From assembly GCA_026989395.1 (NCBI GenBank), contig JALSJK010000003.1, positions 1-34,743 of the forward strand: a DNA stretch of 34,743 bases, in the 5' to 3' direction. Position numbers and translations under genes: made by a program. The notes beneath the pieces are model-generated. The model worked only from the letters and a program-made list of their open reading frames with translations, searched no databases and was not told where the DNA came from. This stretch comes from Methylomonas sp. (GTDB lineage: Bacteria; Pseudomonadota; Gammaproteobacteria; Methylococcales; Methylomonadaceae). Position 1 is the first letter of the stretch, and each line of letters begins with the position of its first letter. Shown here in pieces: positions 1,861 through 8,279 of this stretch.

Positions 1861-2424
1861 TTAATCGTCTTTACTTTGCGGTAATTTGATAAGTTCGAGC
1901 GTACGTTTCGGCAGTTGTGTTCCAGAATGACTTTGGTCTGCTGACTCAAGAGTGTCTTGATGCACAGTCGTCATCAATTCGATTAAACGGGTTTCATGTT
2001 GTAGCTTTTTTTCAATGTCCTGACACTGCCACATTTGTTTCAATATTTGTTTGGCATGGTGGTGTATGGTTAGCGAAACAGCATCTGGGAGGTGGGAATA
2101 ACTTTTCTGAATCAGGGTTTTTAGTTGATCGATAGAGTCCAGATATTGTTTGTAGTCCCGGATTTGCTGTTCACATTCGGCTTTAAACATTGTCAGGCTT
2201 GCTTCATGTTGTTGTTTTATTTTTGCAAGCTGGAAAGAAAACTCGGCTTTTTGTTTTTCTAGTTCTACTTGCAAACTTTGTTTTGCCCTCTCTTTGTGGC
2301 TTTTTAGAGCGTATATTTCCTGTTGGTTTTCTTGTTGCCAGCGCAGGTTCTCGGATTTTGCCGAATTGAACAGATTCATGAAAAATGAAGCTATTTTCGA
2401 GTTTGGCATGATTGAACTCATCAT
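1861..2424 (-). CDS. Coiled-coil hypothetical protein at the end of the cyd operon
   Basis: A 187-residue soluble protein. Residues about 25-105 are a long charged helix rich in Gln, Glu and Lys (for example QQENQQEIYALKSHKERAKQ) with heptad-like hydrophobic spacing, so a coiled coil is likely. The remainder (about 106-165) is also helical, with a His-rich patch (IHHHAK). There is no signal peptide and no recognised domain. Its ATG at 2422-2424 overlaps the stop of the preceding gene by one base (TGATG), which indicates translational coupling. It is therefore the last gene of the set that begins with cydP. The tandem ATG ATG leaves a one-codon doubt about the start. Function unknown; a structural or scaffolding partner of the upstream membrane protein is an inference from gene order only. 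Confidence 0.7.
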   Translation of the reverse strand: MMSSIMPNSKIASFFMNLFNSAKSENLRWQQENQQEIYALKSHKERAKQSLQVELEKQKAEFSFQLAKIKQQHEASLTMFKAECEQQIRDYKQYLDSIDQLKTLIQKSYSHLPDAVSLTIHHHAKQILKQMWQCQDIEKKLQHETRLIELMTTVHQDTLESADQSHSGTQLPKRTLELIKLPQSKDD

Positions 2425-2903
2425 CAGTTTTTGGAGTCGGCAAGGAGAAGTTCAGGATGTTGAGAGAAGTCAAGCAAGCTAAAATTGATTTTGAGTAGTC
2501 CATTCATATCAAGTTGAGCAACGCATTGCTTGATTGATTGCTGAATTTCTCTACGTTCTTCAGGCGAAAGATTTTTTCGATATAAATGAAGCTGCTTTTT
2601 AGTCGATTTTGCCAAAAATTGAATCTGGTTTTTTGTATTTCGGTTATGAAGAGCTTGTTGCCTGGAAATGGTTTTTCCCCAGATCAATTTGGTTTTTTTG
2701 TAATATGCTTTTTTTAAACGCGCTCTTTTTTTCCAATAATTCTGGAATTGTTTTCGAAGTCTAGCCGGGATCGAAAAAAACAGATAGACCGTTTCCACTA
2801 CATTATTAAAGCAATAACTCAGTAAGGCCGTTCCAGCCAGACTTATCAGGATGTAGGAAGCCAGCATAAAAAACAGGCCAAAGAGCAATGGCAATACAAT
2901 CAT
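2424..2903 (-). CDS. Basic membrane-anchored hypothetical protein in the cyd operon
   Basis: A 159-residue protein. Residues 1-30 are strongly hydrophobic (one long or two short membrane helices), and a second hydrophobic stretch runs at about 33-45. It is followed by a very basic segment (PARLRKQFQNYWKKRARLKK and on to about residue 80) expected to stay in the cytoplasm. Residues about 80-159 are soluble and mainly helical, with LSPEERREIQQSIKQCVAQL. No family was recognised. Its ATG directly follows the TAA of the CydX-GGDEF gene with no spacer, and its TGA overlaps the next start, so it sits in the middle of one cotranscribed set. The basic cytoplasmic tail could bind lipid head groups, nucleic acid or the acidic GGDEF module next door, but none of these is shown by the sequence. 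Confidence 0.7.
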   Translation of the reverse strand: MIVLPLLFGLFFMLASYILISLAGTALLSYCFNNVVETVYLFFSIPARLRKQFQNYWKKRARLKKAYYKKTKLIWGKTISRQQALHNRNTKNQIQFLAKSTKKQLHLYRKNLSPEERREIQQSIKQCVAQLDMNGLLKINFSLLDFSQHPELLLADSKN

Positions 2904-3533
2904 TTAACTAACCACTTCGTCATTTGCACAACAAAAACTGTTTTTTCCCTGTTTTTGGGCGTCCTTACAGGCTTTGTCAGTTTCTTTAAGCAAGGTTGTG
3001 ACTTGTTCCTGAATTGAGTCATCAATATTCTCGGCTATTAGCGTAGGGTATTCAGCAACACCAATACTGATAATTGAGTCACTGGTTGGAACATTCGTTT
3101 GCTCTACTGCATTTTTACAAATTCGTTCTGCAATAGTTTTAGCAATGCTTGCTGTCGCGCCTGGTAATATGACAGTAAAAGTTGCTGCATCATATCGAGC
3201 GATGAAATCGTGTGGTAATCGAATGTTTTGCTTGATGACTTCGGCGATAGCCATAACCATATTATTTACAAACTCATTATCCTCTTGTTGCGAAAGTGAT
3301 CGAAATGCATCCATACTGATAAACATCACCGAAAAGGGAATCTGACTGGCTTTGTATTCGTCAATATGGCTTTCAAGTTTTTCCAGAAATCTGACCCGGG
3401 TTGGTAATCGGGTTAATGGATCGAGGATAATGGATTCCTGATCCATGGCTTCTTGAGCTTCAAGCCATAAAACATTAATAATTCCAAAAGAAGAGGCGAG
3501 TAAGACTCCTAAAATCCAGGTAAAGTACCACAT
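2904..3533 (-). CDS. CydX cytochrome bd small subunit fused to a degenerate GGDEF domain
   Basis: A 209-residue fusion. Residues 1-25 (MWYFTWILGVLLASSFGI and on to WLEA) match the CydX/YbgT small subunit of bd oxidase, including the invariant MWYF.WILG start. CydX alone is about 37 residues. Residues 38-200 follow the GGDEF plan: DPLTRLPTR at 38-46, a helix, FISMDAF at 71-77, a signature strand at 113-124, ISIGVAEYP at 155-163, and a final helix with AQKQGKNSF. Catalytic residues are lost: GGDEF is replaced by DAATF (115-119), the first metal Asp is Ser73, the IND..GH..GD segment is SLSQQEDNEF, and the RxxD inhibitory site is out of register. Cyclase activity is therefore not expected. It lies 14 bases after cydB with an AAGGAG site. 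Oxidase membership is well supported; a sensing or docking role for the GGDEF part is inference. Confidence 0.88.
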   Translation of the reverse strand: MWYFTWILGVLLASSFGIINVLWLEAQEAMDQESIILDPLTRLPTRVRFLEKLESHIDEYKASQIPFSVMFISMDAFRSLSQQEDNEFVNNMVMAIAEVIKQNIRLPHDFIARYDAATFTVILPGATASIAKTIAERICKNAVEQTNVPTSDSIISIGVAEYPTLIAENIDDSIQEQVTTLLKETDKACKDAQKQGKNSFCCANDEVVS

Positions 3534-3547
3534 GGTTAATCTCCTTG

Positions 3548-4690
3548 TCAGTAGGCGGTATGAGTGTTTTCACGGATTTTCTTTACCGTGACCTTGCCGC
3601 GCAGTACCCGGTAAACCCAGCTGGTATACATGATGACAATAGGCAAAAAGACAACTGTTGACCAGAACAGAGCTTTTAAGGTCATGTAACTGGAGCTCGA
3701 GTCCCAAATAGTCAGGCTGCTGTTTGGTGCGCTGCTGGAGGGTAATATAAACGGATACATTGAAAGTCCGGCAGTCAAAATAACCCCGGTGACTGTCAAA
3801 CTGCTGGTAATAAAACCAAGACCAGGTTTGTCTAAGCGCGACAATAGAATAGTGAACAGTGTCATGACAATTGCCATTATGGGTACCATAAATAACCAGC
3901 CAAAATAGTTGTAATTATCCATCCATGCGCCAGTTTCGGTTTGAACTATTTTCCCTAAAGGATTTGGTGCAGCGTCAAGTTTTCCCATTGACACAATGCG
4001 ATATCCGTCAACCCCGTAAGCAACCCAGAGCCCAGCCAATAGAAACAGAACCAGAAAAATCAGACCTGACCAAAATATGGCTTTTTTGCAGCGTTCGGCA
4101 ATAACGCCCTCAGTTTTAAGTTGTAAGTAAATACCGCCTTGCATAATTAACATGGATAAACTGACGAGGCCGGCTAAAATTCCGAATGGGTTTAATAAGC
4201 CCCAGAAGCTTCCGGTGTAATAGGAGCGTAAATCAGTATCAAAATGGAACGGTACACCTTGTAATAAATTACCAAAAGCAATGCCAAAGACCAAGGCAGG
4301 AACCATACCGCCAATGAACAATCCCCAATCCCAGGCATTTCGCCATCGTGGATCCGGTAATTTGCTGCGATAATCAAAACCTACGGGTCTGAAAAACAGG
4401 GCAAACAAGATCAATAACAAGGCGAAATAAAACCCTGAAAAAGCGGTAGCGTATACTTGTGGCCAAGCCGCGAATAAAGCGCCGCCAGCAGTTACGAACC
4501 AGACCTGGTTGCCTTCCCAGGTGGGACCAACGACATTCAGCAGTACTCGGCGTTCCTCATCAGTCTTGCCGATGAAAGGTAACAAAGTACCGATCCCTAA
4601 ATCGAAGCCGTCCATTATGGCGAAGCCAATGAACAAGATTCCAATAAACAGCCACCAGATAACTTTTAAAGTTTCATAGTCCAAAGTCAT
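3548..4690 (-). CDS. cydB: Cytochrome bd ubiquinol oxidase subunit II
   Basis: At 380 residues it has the usual CydB length. It is a polytopic membrane protein with the typical opening ([20 protein letters not shown]), [20 protein letters not shown] at about 37-56, then [20 protein letters not shown] and the conserved FRPVGFDYR segment. With CydA it forms the quinol oxidase that reduces oxygen to water with high affinity and contributes to the proton-motive force. CydB carries no haem ligand in the bd-I type but completes the oxidase core. Its ATG overlaps the cydA stop (ATGA, 4 bases), so the two are translationally coupled. The C-terminus ends in a basic cytoplasmic tail ([20 protein letters not shown]). 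Nothing unusual was seen in the sequence. Confidence 0.97.
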
Positions 4691-6249
4691 GCTGAACCTC
4701 CAATTTTTTCAAAATAATAACGGCCAGTATGCAATGCACTTGGCCCCAGACGGGCATATTTGAACATCAAAAACATTTCTACGATAAACAGCAAGGTATA
4801 AAAGCCGATAAAGCCAGCCAAACTTAAATAAAGGTCGCCAGATGTTCGTGTGGAAACGCTTAAATGGGTAGGAAGAATTTCAGCAATAGACCACGGTTGG
4901 CGGCCATACTCAGCCACTATCCATCCCATTTCACAGGCAATCCAGGGTAAAGGGATTGCGTAAAGAGCTGCCCATAACAGCCATCGATATTGCATGACTT
5001 TTTGGGTTGAGCTGGCATAAAAAGCAATTCCAAAAATCAGAAGCATGGCAAATCCTGACGCAACCATAATTCTAAATGCCCAGAATAATGGCGCCACTTT
5101 GGGAACAGTGCTTTTTTTAGCGAGATGGATCTGCTCTTCTGTTGCATCTACAACATTGTCAGTATATTTTTTTAATAGTAAACCGTAGCCAAGGTCTTTT
5201 TTATAATGTTCAAATTGGGCTTTTGTCTTATCGTCTTGCTGTCCGGATTTTAATTTTTGTAGTAGGCCATAAGCAACCATGCCATCACGAATTCTTTGTT
5301 CATTTGCTTCCAGGATATCCTTGATTCCAACAATAGGGTGTTCGATAGAACGAGTGCCTATTAATCCTAGCAGCCAGGGAACCTTGATGGCATGCTCGGT
5401 AACCATTTTTTCCTGATCAGGCAATCCGAAAATAGTAAAGGCGGCGGGTGGTTCAACCGTTTCCCATTCTGCCTCAATTGCAGCCAATTTTACTTTTTGC
5501 ACTTCGCCAGCGGTATATCCACTTTCATCACCTAAAACAATAACTGACATCACTCCCGCAAAGCCAAAGGCGGCAGCAATGGCAAAAGAACGAATGGCAA
5601 ACGCCTGGTCACGTCTGTTCAATAAATAATAGGCGCTGATGCCAAGCACAAACATGGCGCCTGTACAATATCCGGCAGCAACGGTATGAACAAATTTCAC
5701 CTGGGCAACGGGGTTGAAAATAACTTCTGCAAAACTGGAAACTTCCATGCGCATGGTTTCGTAGTTAAATTCTGCGCCAATTGGGTTTTGCATCCAGCCA
5801 TTAGCAATCAGAATCATTAACGCGGACAAATTGCTGGCCAACGCTAATAACCAGGTACACACTAAGTGTTGTACTCGGGTTAATCGATCCCAGCCAAAAA
5901 AGAATAGGCCGATCAAAGTCGATTCCAGAAAGAAGGCGACCAGACCTTCAATGGCGAGGGGAACCCCGAAAATATCGCCAACATAATGGGAGTAATAGGC
6001 CCAGTTGGTGCCAAATTGGAATTCCAGTGTTAAGCCAGTAGTTACACCTAATGCAAAGTTAATCCCAAATAACTTTCCCCAAAAGCGAGTCATGTCTTTG
6101 TAGATTTGTTTGCCAGTCATCACGTATGAGGATTCCATAATCGCCAGGATAAAGGATAAACCTAGCGTTAATGGTACAAACAGAAAATGGTATAAGGCGG
6201 TAATTGCAAACTGCAAACGTGATAGATCAACGACTTCTTCAGAAATCAT
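4687..6249 (-). CDS. cydA: Cytochrome bd ubiquinol oxidase subunit I
   Basis: At 520 residues it is nearly the length of E. coli CydA and very similar throughout. His21 (in ALYHFLF) corresponds to the haem b595 ligand His19. His near residue 188 ([10 protein letters not shown]) matches the haem b558 ligand His186. The Met ligand falls in [11 protein letters not shown]. The long periplasmic quinol loop, including GDESGY and [11 protein letters not shown], is present, which places it in the long-loop bd-I class. The C-terminal [20 protein letters not shown] is also canonical. The start is supported by an AAGGAG site about 10 bases upstream and by the 4-base ATGA overlap with cydP. It catalyses quinol oxidation and oxygen reduction in the inner membrane. 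Confidence 0.98.
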
Positions 6250-6431
6250 GATAATGGCTCCTTGGGTTGAGTTGTTCCTAGAAAAACACGGTCAATATCT
6301 TCATTGGTCAGATTTTTGCTGACTGGATTATTAAAGAATGCGTACTTGAGGCTAACGATTAATATGAGTTTAATTATTAGCACAACTATGATTTCTTGTT
6401 TGAAAGCATCAATTTTAGTTAATAATTTCAT
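6246..6431 (-). CDS. cydP: Putative cytochrome bd small subunit CydP
   Basis: A 61-residue protein with one membrane helix (about residues 13-31, [20 protein letters not shown]) followed by FFNNP and a short polar tail. Single-helix proteins with this plan (E-I-x-hydrophobic-K-L, then FF.xP) are encoded just upstream of cydA in many Proteobacteria and are named CydP as a putative oxidase subunit. Here it overlaps cydA by 4 bases (ATGA), giving strong coupling. It is the first gene of the operon, with a 32-base perfect palindrome just upstream. No good ribosome binding site precedes its ATG. Position and topology are clear; the family name is from memory of the pattern and the role in the oxidase is not established. 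Confidence 0.72.
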
Positions 6432-6462
6432 ATTACTGATTCATGGAAGCTAAGGTTGTATT

Positions 6463-6494
6463 ATTAATATTTTAATATGTATTAAAATATTAAT
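6463..6494. promoter_or_regulatory. Perfect AT-only palindrome upstream of the cyd operon
   Basis: ATTAATATTTTAATA, two bases (TG), then its exact reverse complement: 15-base arms with no mismatch. It ends 32 bases before the cydP start and 23 bases after the spoIIM-like stop, so it sits where the cyd promoter or leader should be. It has no T-run and no G/C in the arms, so it is a poor terminator. It could be an operator for a dimeric regulator, a UP-element-like or bent site, or a weak hairpin. It does not match the FNR (TTGAT-N4-ATCAA) pattern. Confidence 0.5.
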
Positions 6495-6516
6495 TTACTA
6501 AGTTTTGGTTTATAGA

Positions 6517-7515
6517 CTATATACCTTGTAATGTAGGTTTATTTTTTAATGGCAGACCAAAAAGTAGAGTATACCAGAGGAATAGTCCACTGATAATGCC
6601 TACTAGTATACGCGTCATCAGACTAAATTGGTTATTTGGCGAGATAAAACCTTCTATTAACCCAGCCAAAATCAGAAAGGGAACTGCCGCCAGCATGACT
6701 TTTCCTGCATTAAGAGTAATTTGCTGGAAGGCTTGGAGTCTGTTGTTGTTTCCTGGTCGAATCAACGCTTCACCTAATCGCAAGCCCATTGCTCCTGCAA
6801 TGATGATGACACTCAGTTCGACTACGCCATGGCCGATAATAAACTTGAATAATCTGTCATCCAGATTATATTGGGCGGTAAAAGCAAACACGCCTCCTAG
6901 CATAAGCCCATTCATCGCAATGATGTATAGCGTGCCCAGGCCGTACAGAGCGCCAAGGGCAAATGCAAACAGACTAACGGTTATGTTGTTGGTGATAATG
7001 CCCAAGGAAACGACAGAAGAAGGCATAATATTAAGCAAGTCATCGGTCCATAATTTACCACTTTGGACATGGTTAATCATTTCCGGCGAAGCAAACAAAG
7101 TGACAAGATTCGGGAAGAAAGAAATCAAAAACCATCCAGCCAGGATTGAAAGTGTAAATATAACCAGAGTGGCGAGGATGGGTTTCAACATTTGCCGCAT
7201 TAACCGAGGAATTTCAATATTATAGAGATCCTTAATTTGCGATAGATAGTGTCTGGGTGGCTGATAAATGGCTTCATGACATTTTATAAAAAGGCTTTCA
7301 AGGTAGCGGGTTAGAGGATGGCCGGGCATATTTCGATGCGCTAGCGAAAGATCTGATTGAACTGAACGGAATCCAGCTAAAATTTCTCTTGCGGTTTCCA
7401 GTGCATCGTTGCAATCAGAAGGCCTTGTTGATAGGTTTTTTTCAAGATGTTGCCAGTTTTTTACACGAGAACTGAGCCAGTTTGATAATGCTTTTTTGGC
7501 ATGATCTTTTTTCAT
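6517..7515 (-). CDS. SpoIIM-like (stage II sporulation protein M family) membrane protein
   Basis: At 332 residues it has a soluble helical N-terminal third (about 1-105), including SDLSLAHRNMPGHPLTRYLE, and a membrane part from about residue 112. Typical family features are NNITVSLFAFALGALYGLGT followed by NGLMLGGVFAF, and the helix with GHGVVELSVIIIAGAMGLRLGEALI, which carries the family's His-Gly-x-x-Glu. The fold is shared with SpoIIM of sporulators but here is found in a non-sporulating lineage, where such genes usually pair with RDD genes. Its ATG overlaps the end of the RDD gene by 4 bases (ATGA). The biochemical role is unknown. In many genomes this pair sits with MoxR/vWA genes; none is visible here. 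Confidence 0.85.
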   Translation of the reverse strand: MKKDHAKKALSNWLSSRVKNWQHLEKNLSTRPSDCNDALETAREILAGFRSVQSDLSLAHRNMPGHPLTRYLESLFIKCHEAIYQPPRHYLSQIKDLYNIEIPRLMRQMLKPILATLVIFTLSILAGWFLISFFPNLVTLFASPEMINHVQSGKLWTDDLLNIMPSSVVSLGIITNNITVSLFAFALGALYGLGTLYIIAMNGLMLGGVFAFTAQYNLDDRLFKFIIGHGVVELSVIIIAGAMGLRLGEALIRPGNNNRLQAFQQITLNAGKVMLAAVPFLILAGLIEGFISPNNQFSLMTRILVGIISGLFLWYTLLFGLPLKNKPTLQGI

Positions 7516-8279
7516 AATTCACCTGTTTTGGCAAGTTTTTCGAGCTGTTCCCATAGTTGTTTGCTCTGTTTAGTTATTTCTTGATTTTGGCTGGAAACTG
7601 TTTTACCAATTTTGTGTAGGAATTTTTCCCCGAGCCGAATCTGATCTTCAGTTTGCATTTGCGGCCATCTATTCAGTAAACCCAACAACAAAGACTGGTC
7701 TGCTGGATCAAGATTTGATTTAAGGGCCAGCTGACTGGCTTGTTGCAATTGTTTTTGGTCAATCTCCTGGCTGTAGACTAACATCAACCCTGCCGCCATA
7801 TCACCGATTCTGACTTGCTGGCGTGTTAAAGCAACAGCTGCAAGACCAACGATATAAAATGCAGGCAGGCTATCAAGCAGACGAAAAACATTACGAATCA
7901 ATAGAGAGCTGACGTCCGGGGTCAGGCCGTTGATGGTAACAATTTTTACTCCCGCCATTCGCTTGCCTGGTGTTCGCCCAGACATGATGATTTCAAGTAA
8001 GGGATGATAAAAAAAATAGATAATTCCTGCAGGTGCCAGCCATAGATAAAGCATCCCCGTAGATGCCTGATCAAAGGCATAACGCATGCCTTGGAATGAA
8101 AATAATGCAATACCACAACCCAATATCCAGGAAATAGCCAGCAGTAGACGGAAATGCCAGTCAATAATGAAGGCATGTGAGCGGGCGCCAATTCCGGCAA
8201 TTTCTATGGACATGCCAAATGCTTCAGGCGACTGTATTAGAATGTGATTGCTTGTGGCCAGGTCTTGTTTGTAATTCAC
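7512..8279 (-). CDS. RDD family membrane protein
   Basis: At 255 residues, the RDD domain covers about residues 20-170: GARSHAFIIDW near 31-41 (the R and D), three membrane helices, SGRTPGKRMAGVKIV at about 100-114, then LIRNVFRLLDSLPAFYIVG (the second R and D) and IGDMAAGLML. The C-terminal 85 residues are soluble and helical, with Gln and Lys repeats. The start codon is GTG at 8279; no strong ribosome binding site is visible and an internal ATG at residue 23 is a less likely alternative because the usual pre-domain segment lies upstream. It overlaps the SpoIIM-like gene by 4 bases and follows lnt by 51 bases. RDD proteins are a broad family with some members implicated in ion transport; the substrate here is unknown. 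Confidence 0.87.
   Translation of the reverse strand: MNYKQDLATSNHILIQSPEAFGMSIEIAGIGARSHAFIIDWHFRLLLAISWILGCGIALFSFQGMRYAFDQASTGMLYLWLAPAGIIYFFYHPLLEIIMSGRTPGKRMAGVKIVTINGLTPDVSSLLIRNVFRLLDSLPAFYIVGLAAVALTRQQVRIGDMAAGLMLVYSQEIDQKQLQQASQLALKSNLDPADQSLLLGLLNRWPQMQTEDQIRLGEKFLHKIGKTVSSQNQEITKQSKQLWEQLEKLAKTGEL

Follow-up and report, generated by a model that had tools for sequence, protein, structure and literature searches.

We report that the gene directly 3' of cydB in a Methylomonas sp. encodes CydX, the small subunit of cytochrome bd, joined to a GGDEF domain that has lost the residues of a diguanylate cyclase, and that the same fusion is carried by other members of the Methylococcales. 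CydX is usually a single helix and is regarded mainly as holding the oxidase together. The fusion puts an often dimeric signalling fold on exactly the helix that makes the dimer contact in E. coli, in methane removers that often live at low oxygen. CydX-GGDEF is a known subunit in a new variant form with an unusual testable implication: it is a natural test of whether dimerisation sets cytochrome bd activity, and it might connect nucleotide signalling directly with respiration.

To our knowledge there is no known example of a catalytically dead GGDEF domain in a respiratory oxidase. A literature search, thin in subscription journals and preprints, gave no description of a CydX-GGDEF fusion, and two papers on cytochrome bd evolution that were searched mention neither a fusion nor GGDEF; these proteins are probably present in the sequence databases under automatic names, without having drawn comment. 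Methylobacter genomes usually hold as many as two bd-type oxidases, which is interpreted as a low-oxygen adaptation, and in its passages on cytochrome bd the same paper lists CydAB(X) without comment on a fusion (PMC12810054).

The fusion gene and its operon

The window, i.e. the whole stretch of 34,743 nucleotides that was analysed (contig JALSJK010000003.1), includes the following features.

1861-2424 and 2424-2903, minus strand: two open reading frames of no known family, 3' of the fusion gene, with no Pfam match above cut-off
2904-3533, minus strand: cydX-GGDEF fusion gene, a single open reading frame of 209 aa
2940-3428, minus strand: degenerate GGDEF domain, residues 36-198
3177-3191, minus strand: DAATF, residues 115-119, in the place of GGDEF/GGEEF
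3207-3221, minus strand: R105xxxD109, related to the RxxD inhibitory site but shifted
3315-3317, minus strand: codon of Ser73, in the place of the first metal-binding Asp
3435-3533, minus strand: CydX part, residues 1-33, transmembrane helix
3541-3545, minus strand: ribosome-binding site AGGAG, 7 nt 5' of the fusion ATG, as read from the sequence
3548-4690, minus strand: cydB, cytochrome bd subunit II (TIGR00203, 500 bits)
4687-6249, minus strand: cydA, cytochrome bd subunit I, long Q-loop type (NF011677, 885 bits)
6246-6431, minus strand: cydP, putative small oxidase subunit (NF045611, 41.4 bits, cut-off 29.6), its end overlapping the cydA start

As read from the sequence, the fusion gene opens with ATG, has 209 codons and closes with TAA; its strand, which the preliminary description did not give, is minus. 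Residues 1-27 match the Pfam family YbgT_YccB (CydX, PF08173; E=3.5e-14, 53 bits against a cut-off of 26.2) and residues 37-198 the Pfam family GGDEF (PF00990; E=2.2e-22, 80 bits against a cut-off of 23.8), and the NCBIfam profiles place CydX at residues 1-30 (TIGR02106, 54.3 bits against a cut-off of 31.6) and GGDEF at residues 36-201 (TIGR00254, 66.6 bits, above cut-off). Both halves are thus well above chance, and these two-domain matches, together with 55 homologous fusions that could be aligned, bear out the earlier claims of a CydX-like N-terminus and of a real fusion. A chance resemblance to GGDEF is ruled out by the profile scores and by the structural matches described below.

Apart from its length the protein resembles CydX of cytochrome bd-I: residues 1-33 are a normal CydX with the MWYFxWILG motif, the curated cut-offs are passed, the gene lies directly 3' of cydB, and the cydA of the operon is of the type with a long Q-loop, which accompanies CydX. 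In contrast to the usual size of less than about 60 aa, and to the 37 aa of E. coli CydX, the fusion has 209 aa here and about 188-210 in relatives, with an added folded domain of 150-170 residues; a 2014 survey had given at most 44 aa for the variable CydX C-terminal region (PMC4325964). No second CydX was found elsewhere in the genome of the window (3.27 Mb, 182 contigs, 98% complete), in which CydA has one match.

The probability that an assembly or frameshift artefact joined cydX to a separate GGDEF gene is practically nil, given that dozens of independent assemblies share the reading frame, including single-contig genomes and Methylobacter tundripaludum SV96. A stop or frameshift after the CydX part, which the preliminary description had named as refuting the fusion, is absent, and its second concern, a fusion unique to one assembly, is answered by the relatives that carry it too. 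Nor is a separate GGDEF protein from an internal start favoured: the homologues have no majority-shared start codon at residues 24-43, ATG is common at codons 44 (23/55) and 49 (42/55), within the domain and past the D-x-L-T motif, and the window has no ATG at these two codons.

The operon reads, on the minus strand, cydP, cydA, cydB and the fusion gene, and the open reading frame at 2424-2903 starts on the base next to the fusion stop codon, which suggests a single transcript. Among the fetched loci, relatives of this frame and of the one at 1861-2424 were seen in the same genus only (61% and 82% identity, respectively), and no conserved partner gene was found downstream of the fusion beyond the genus. 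Aligned with E. coli CydA, the CydA of the window keeps the equivalents of H19, E99, E107, H186, D239, Y243, R298 and M393.

Distribution and origin of the fusion

With a threshold of E≤1e-24 the fusion is present in 69 of 311 Methylococcales genomes, representing 15 of 50 genera and two families; CydA was found in 196 of the 311. The closest homologues are all fused, with 83% identity in the same genus, 50% in another family of the order and 35-44% in other genera. Among the matches listed, the named records with the fusion are Methylobacter tundripaludum SV96, Ca. Methylobacter oryzae, Methylobacter sp. KS41 and UBA2778, all of them Methylococcales. Conservation after cydB across related genomes, a check suggested by the preliminary description, was evident in that the fusion is the gene directly 3' of cydB in 25/25 operons inspected, and the same slot holds a short CydX of 32-53 residues in 22/22 non-fusion Methylococcales operons.

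Fusions outside the Methylococcales were not seen in a class sample (369 genomes) or a phylum sample (398 genomes), a few of these genomes being from the order itself, although rare cases may exist beyond these samples; the matches in these samples were all ordinary GGDEF proteins with at most 85 bits, against about 230-309 for intact fusions. Viral contigs gave no match to the fusion, and the matches in plasmid records were all below 60% identity, the five listed starting at residue 3-7 with 29-33% identity. Two further loci deserve mention. One is a CydX-GGDEF fusion (L053, 81-650) on a contig of 3,007 bases that bears the label uncultured Epsilonproteobacteria and is probably misbinned, since the fusion sequence is like those of Methylococcales members such as L020 and L173. 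The other is a fusion gene split into several pieces (G298, C58, 56480-57462), which could reflect decay, a frameshift or sequencing error.

In a CydA tree of 60 sequences, 32/32 short-CydX operons fall on one side of a branch with a support of 98 and 24/24 fusion operons on the other, and four operons without a scored CydX group on the fusion side. One change of state is enough for this split, which is consistent with a single origin of the fusion; a single gain would be the simplest reading of this unrooted tree, not a proof. The presence of both oxidase lineages in one genus makes transfer or differential loss likely. In the Q-loop, CydA position 245 (E. coli numbering) is Asp in 21/24 fusion-lineage and 1/32 short-CydX sequences and Ala in the window; the Asp difference may be lineage history only.

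A retained domain with a lost active site

Residue statistics were taken from the alignment of the 55 homologous fusions, with some counts based on 54 distinct fusions. The position of the first metal-binding Asp, Ser73 in the window, is Ser in 47/55, Asn in 8/55 and Asp in 0/55, and the position of the signature, DAATF in the window, has GG in 0/55; both substitutions had been read correctly from the single sequence. Hence, of the hallmarks of an active diguanylate cyclase, the fold is there and the GG(D/E)EF signature and the first metal Asp are not. The inhibitory site, previously described as out of register, is indeed shifted by one residue: the canonical RxxD is absent, and R105xxxD109, with its spacing one residue longer, is invariant in 55/55. 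The 'IND..GH..GD' segment, in contrast, is not gone as had been stated, since residues 81-90 (SQQEDNEFVN) align gap-free with the diagnostic residues substituted. The metal Asp is substituted in both deep branches, from which we infer that catalytic loss predates the divergence of the sampled fusions.

All 55 homologues share D38 and T41 (from the D-x-L-T motif) as well as F77, R105, D109 and G125, and the remaining cleft residues vary (DEQDF, GEQDF, DKQTI and others). The median pairwise dN/dS is 0.16 for the GGDEF domain and 0.02 for CydX (pairs with dS 0.15-1.0, which are non-independent; the CydX ratio is rough because the sequence is short), and by this measure of codon change the degenerate domain is under purifying selection. 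As selection has kept a GGDEF fold on CydX, the oxidase may have a built-in cytoplasmic control or docking module.

The same data bear on whether the domain is a passive relic, i.e. a GGDEF joined by chance that only lengthens the tail or aids CydX folding. Non-fusion relatives cope with a CydX of 32-53 residues, the C-terminal tail of E. coli CydX tolerates drastic changes (PMC4325964), and in one genome, G298, the gene is in pieces; however, a relic should decay, whereas this domain is retained in 15 genera with a dN/dS of about 0.16 and invariant fold positions, which makes a relic very improbable.

The invariant R105 and D109 raise the question of a nucleotide sensor, in which c-di-GMP (or GTP or (p)ppGpp) would bind via R105xxxD109 or a remodelled cleft and adjust the oxidase directly. 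That the pair persists despite the loss of the catalytic residues speaks for such a site, as does CdgI, which binds c-di-GMP and whose GGDEF is degenerate while its I-site is intact (PMC5635695), and the more than 15 other GGDEF matches in the genome of the window indicate that the messenger is probably present. The R and the D are, however, also found in seven canonical comparison domains, and a structural role is conceivable for the Asp; the spacing is RxxxD instead of RxxD, and every member is without the metal and GTP residues, the remaining cleft residues being variable. An altered c-di-GMP site is possible, and we regard a sensor role as unlikely though by no means negligible.

Predicted structure

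AlphaFold models the protein of the window as a continuous helix at residues 3-33 followed by the helices and strands of GGDEF in their usual order (mean pLDDT 81.6, unreliable at residues 197-209); the M. tundripaludum fusion gave a mean pLDDT of 79.1. With VIA-align the model has Z about 20 to the GGDEF domains of WspR, GcbC and DgcB, and for 5llw_A (Z 20.9, rmsd 4.4 over 188 residues) and WspR 3bre_B (Z 20.4, rmsd 3.2 over 194 residues) the match reaches over the stalk helix. The model and the residue counts above together uphold the proposed GGDEF fold and the loss of its active site.

Helix-stalk diguanylate cyclases are the best matches by structure, and several of them align from residue 1; the CydX helix occupies in the model the place of their dimerising stalk. 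This alignment is partly trivial, as any helix would align; the telling part of the model is the same junction between domain and helix. The helix is broken at residues 34-37 in the models, ahead of the DPLT motif, which makes rigid coupling of the domain to the membrane helix uncertain.

The fusion thus shares with WspR, the bacteriophytochrome-linked 5llx, DgcB and PleD the order helix, D-x-L-T, GGDEF fold, but its stalk is an oxidase subunit, and the metal Asp and GG(D/E)EF are missing in 55/55. With FimX, LapD, CsrD and CdgI, dead GGDEF domains that bind, it has in common a GGDEF fold without cyclase residues; those are signalling proteins, often with an EAL domain, whereas the fusion domain is borne by an oxidase. 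Among the sequence-search matches, the ammonium transporter chains PDB 8qj3 and 8qpf also have a GGDEF-like region C-terminal of a membrane part, in a transporter rather than a respiratory enzyme; the literature search on GGDEF fused to an ammonium transporter returned nothing relevant.

A possible role at the oxidase dimer interface

In E. coli structures the CydX C-terminus is cytoplasmic (PMC6853902, PMC10470546) and Glu25 acts as a float (PMC6853902). The earlier placement of the domain on the cytoplasmic side is supported by this topology; in older work the C-terminus of CydX was assigned to the periplasm (PMC4325964). The premise that CydX merely stabilises the haems needs to be changed, since E. 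coli bd-I also homodimerises through CydX, by way of Met1-Trp2 and a leucine zipper (PMC13189123). In the bd-I dimer Trp2 touches CydA Asp239, the Q-loop is ordered in part and turnover is doubled; the authors put forward dimerisation as regulation of bd-I, its cellular role being a recent proposal (PMC13189123). Likewise, AppX makes the dimer contact of bd-II as a leucine-zipper dimer (PMC8585947). AppX, like the CydX part of the fusion, is a single helix, with which Leu11, Leu12 and Ser15 are shared (position 16 is Leu in most fusions and Phe in the clade of the window), but it has 30 aa and is wholly intramembrane (PMC8585947).

M1, W2, Y3, F4, W6, L8, L11, L12, L22, E25 and A26 are invariant in the 55 fusion homologues, and M1, W2, L8, L11, L12 and L22 are found in 54/54 distinct fusions, a pattern compatible with a zipper contact. 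Position 11 is G or S in 18/20 short Methylococcales CydX and Leu in all fusions; as Leu is also found there in 55/56 short CydX of other bacteria, the zipper is not special to the fusions. CydA D239 is kept in 24/24 fusion-operon CydA compared.

The retention of Met1, Trp2 and CydA Asp239 in every fusion compared leads us to propose that the domain acts on dimerisation: it would cap the CydX dimer interface and tune oxidase dimerisation and so activity, perhaps responding to a ligand or partner. We put this forward tentatively, its chance of being correct lying a little short of even. Specifically, the short cytoplasmic CydX tail would have been replaced, probably once, by a GGDEF domain in an ancestor of a Methylococcales cydAB lineage, and the domain would have lost its diguanylate cyclase residues, with the fold retained, before the sampled fusions diverged. 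The CydX of the fusion presumably inserts beside CydA in the E. coli manner, its C-terminus being cytoplasmic, and its helix may form the oxidase homodimer contact. The GGDEF-like domains of two CydX chains would then meet beneath the membrane, like diguanylate cyclases with a parallel dimeric helix before GGDEF, and the paired domains could reinforce or switch dimerisation of the oxidase; in E. coli bd-I, dimer formation orders the Q-loop and thereby doubles turnover. Some degenerate GGDEF domains homodimerise strongly, in favour of such a cap, but most isolated E. coli GGDEF domains form no homodimers (PMC5635695).

The main rivals are nucleotide sensing and partner docking, either of which could act jointly with dimer control. 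For docking, the domain would be a platform that recruits a cytoplasmic protein to the oxidase, such as an active diguanylate cyclase, a phosphodiesterase or a metabolic enzyme. Degenerate GGDEF domains of E. coli contact other GGDEF proteins specifically (PMC5635695), and R52, L53, E55, K56 and N59 in the first helix of the domain are conserved in at least 90% of the fusions; yet no conserved partner gene lies beside the fusion, the two abutting frames being confined to the genus among the fetched loci, and we consider docking distinctly unlikely. Since CydX and AppX are the dimer interfaces of bd-I and bd-II, we prefer control of dimerisation over a generic docking site as the hypothesis to start from. 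Stated more broadly, the oxidase may bear a cytoplasmic module in which a repurposed GGDEF senses a nucleotide or partner and sets dimerisation and activity directly, without transcription, a possibility if a somewhat doubtful one.

Finally, genes for a SpoIIM-family and an RDD-family membrane protein adjoin the cyd operon of the window (6517-8279, minus strand). In the fusion operon of G027 (L185, about 3516-7558) approximately 4 kb separates cydA from cydB, unlike in the other operons inspected.
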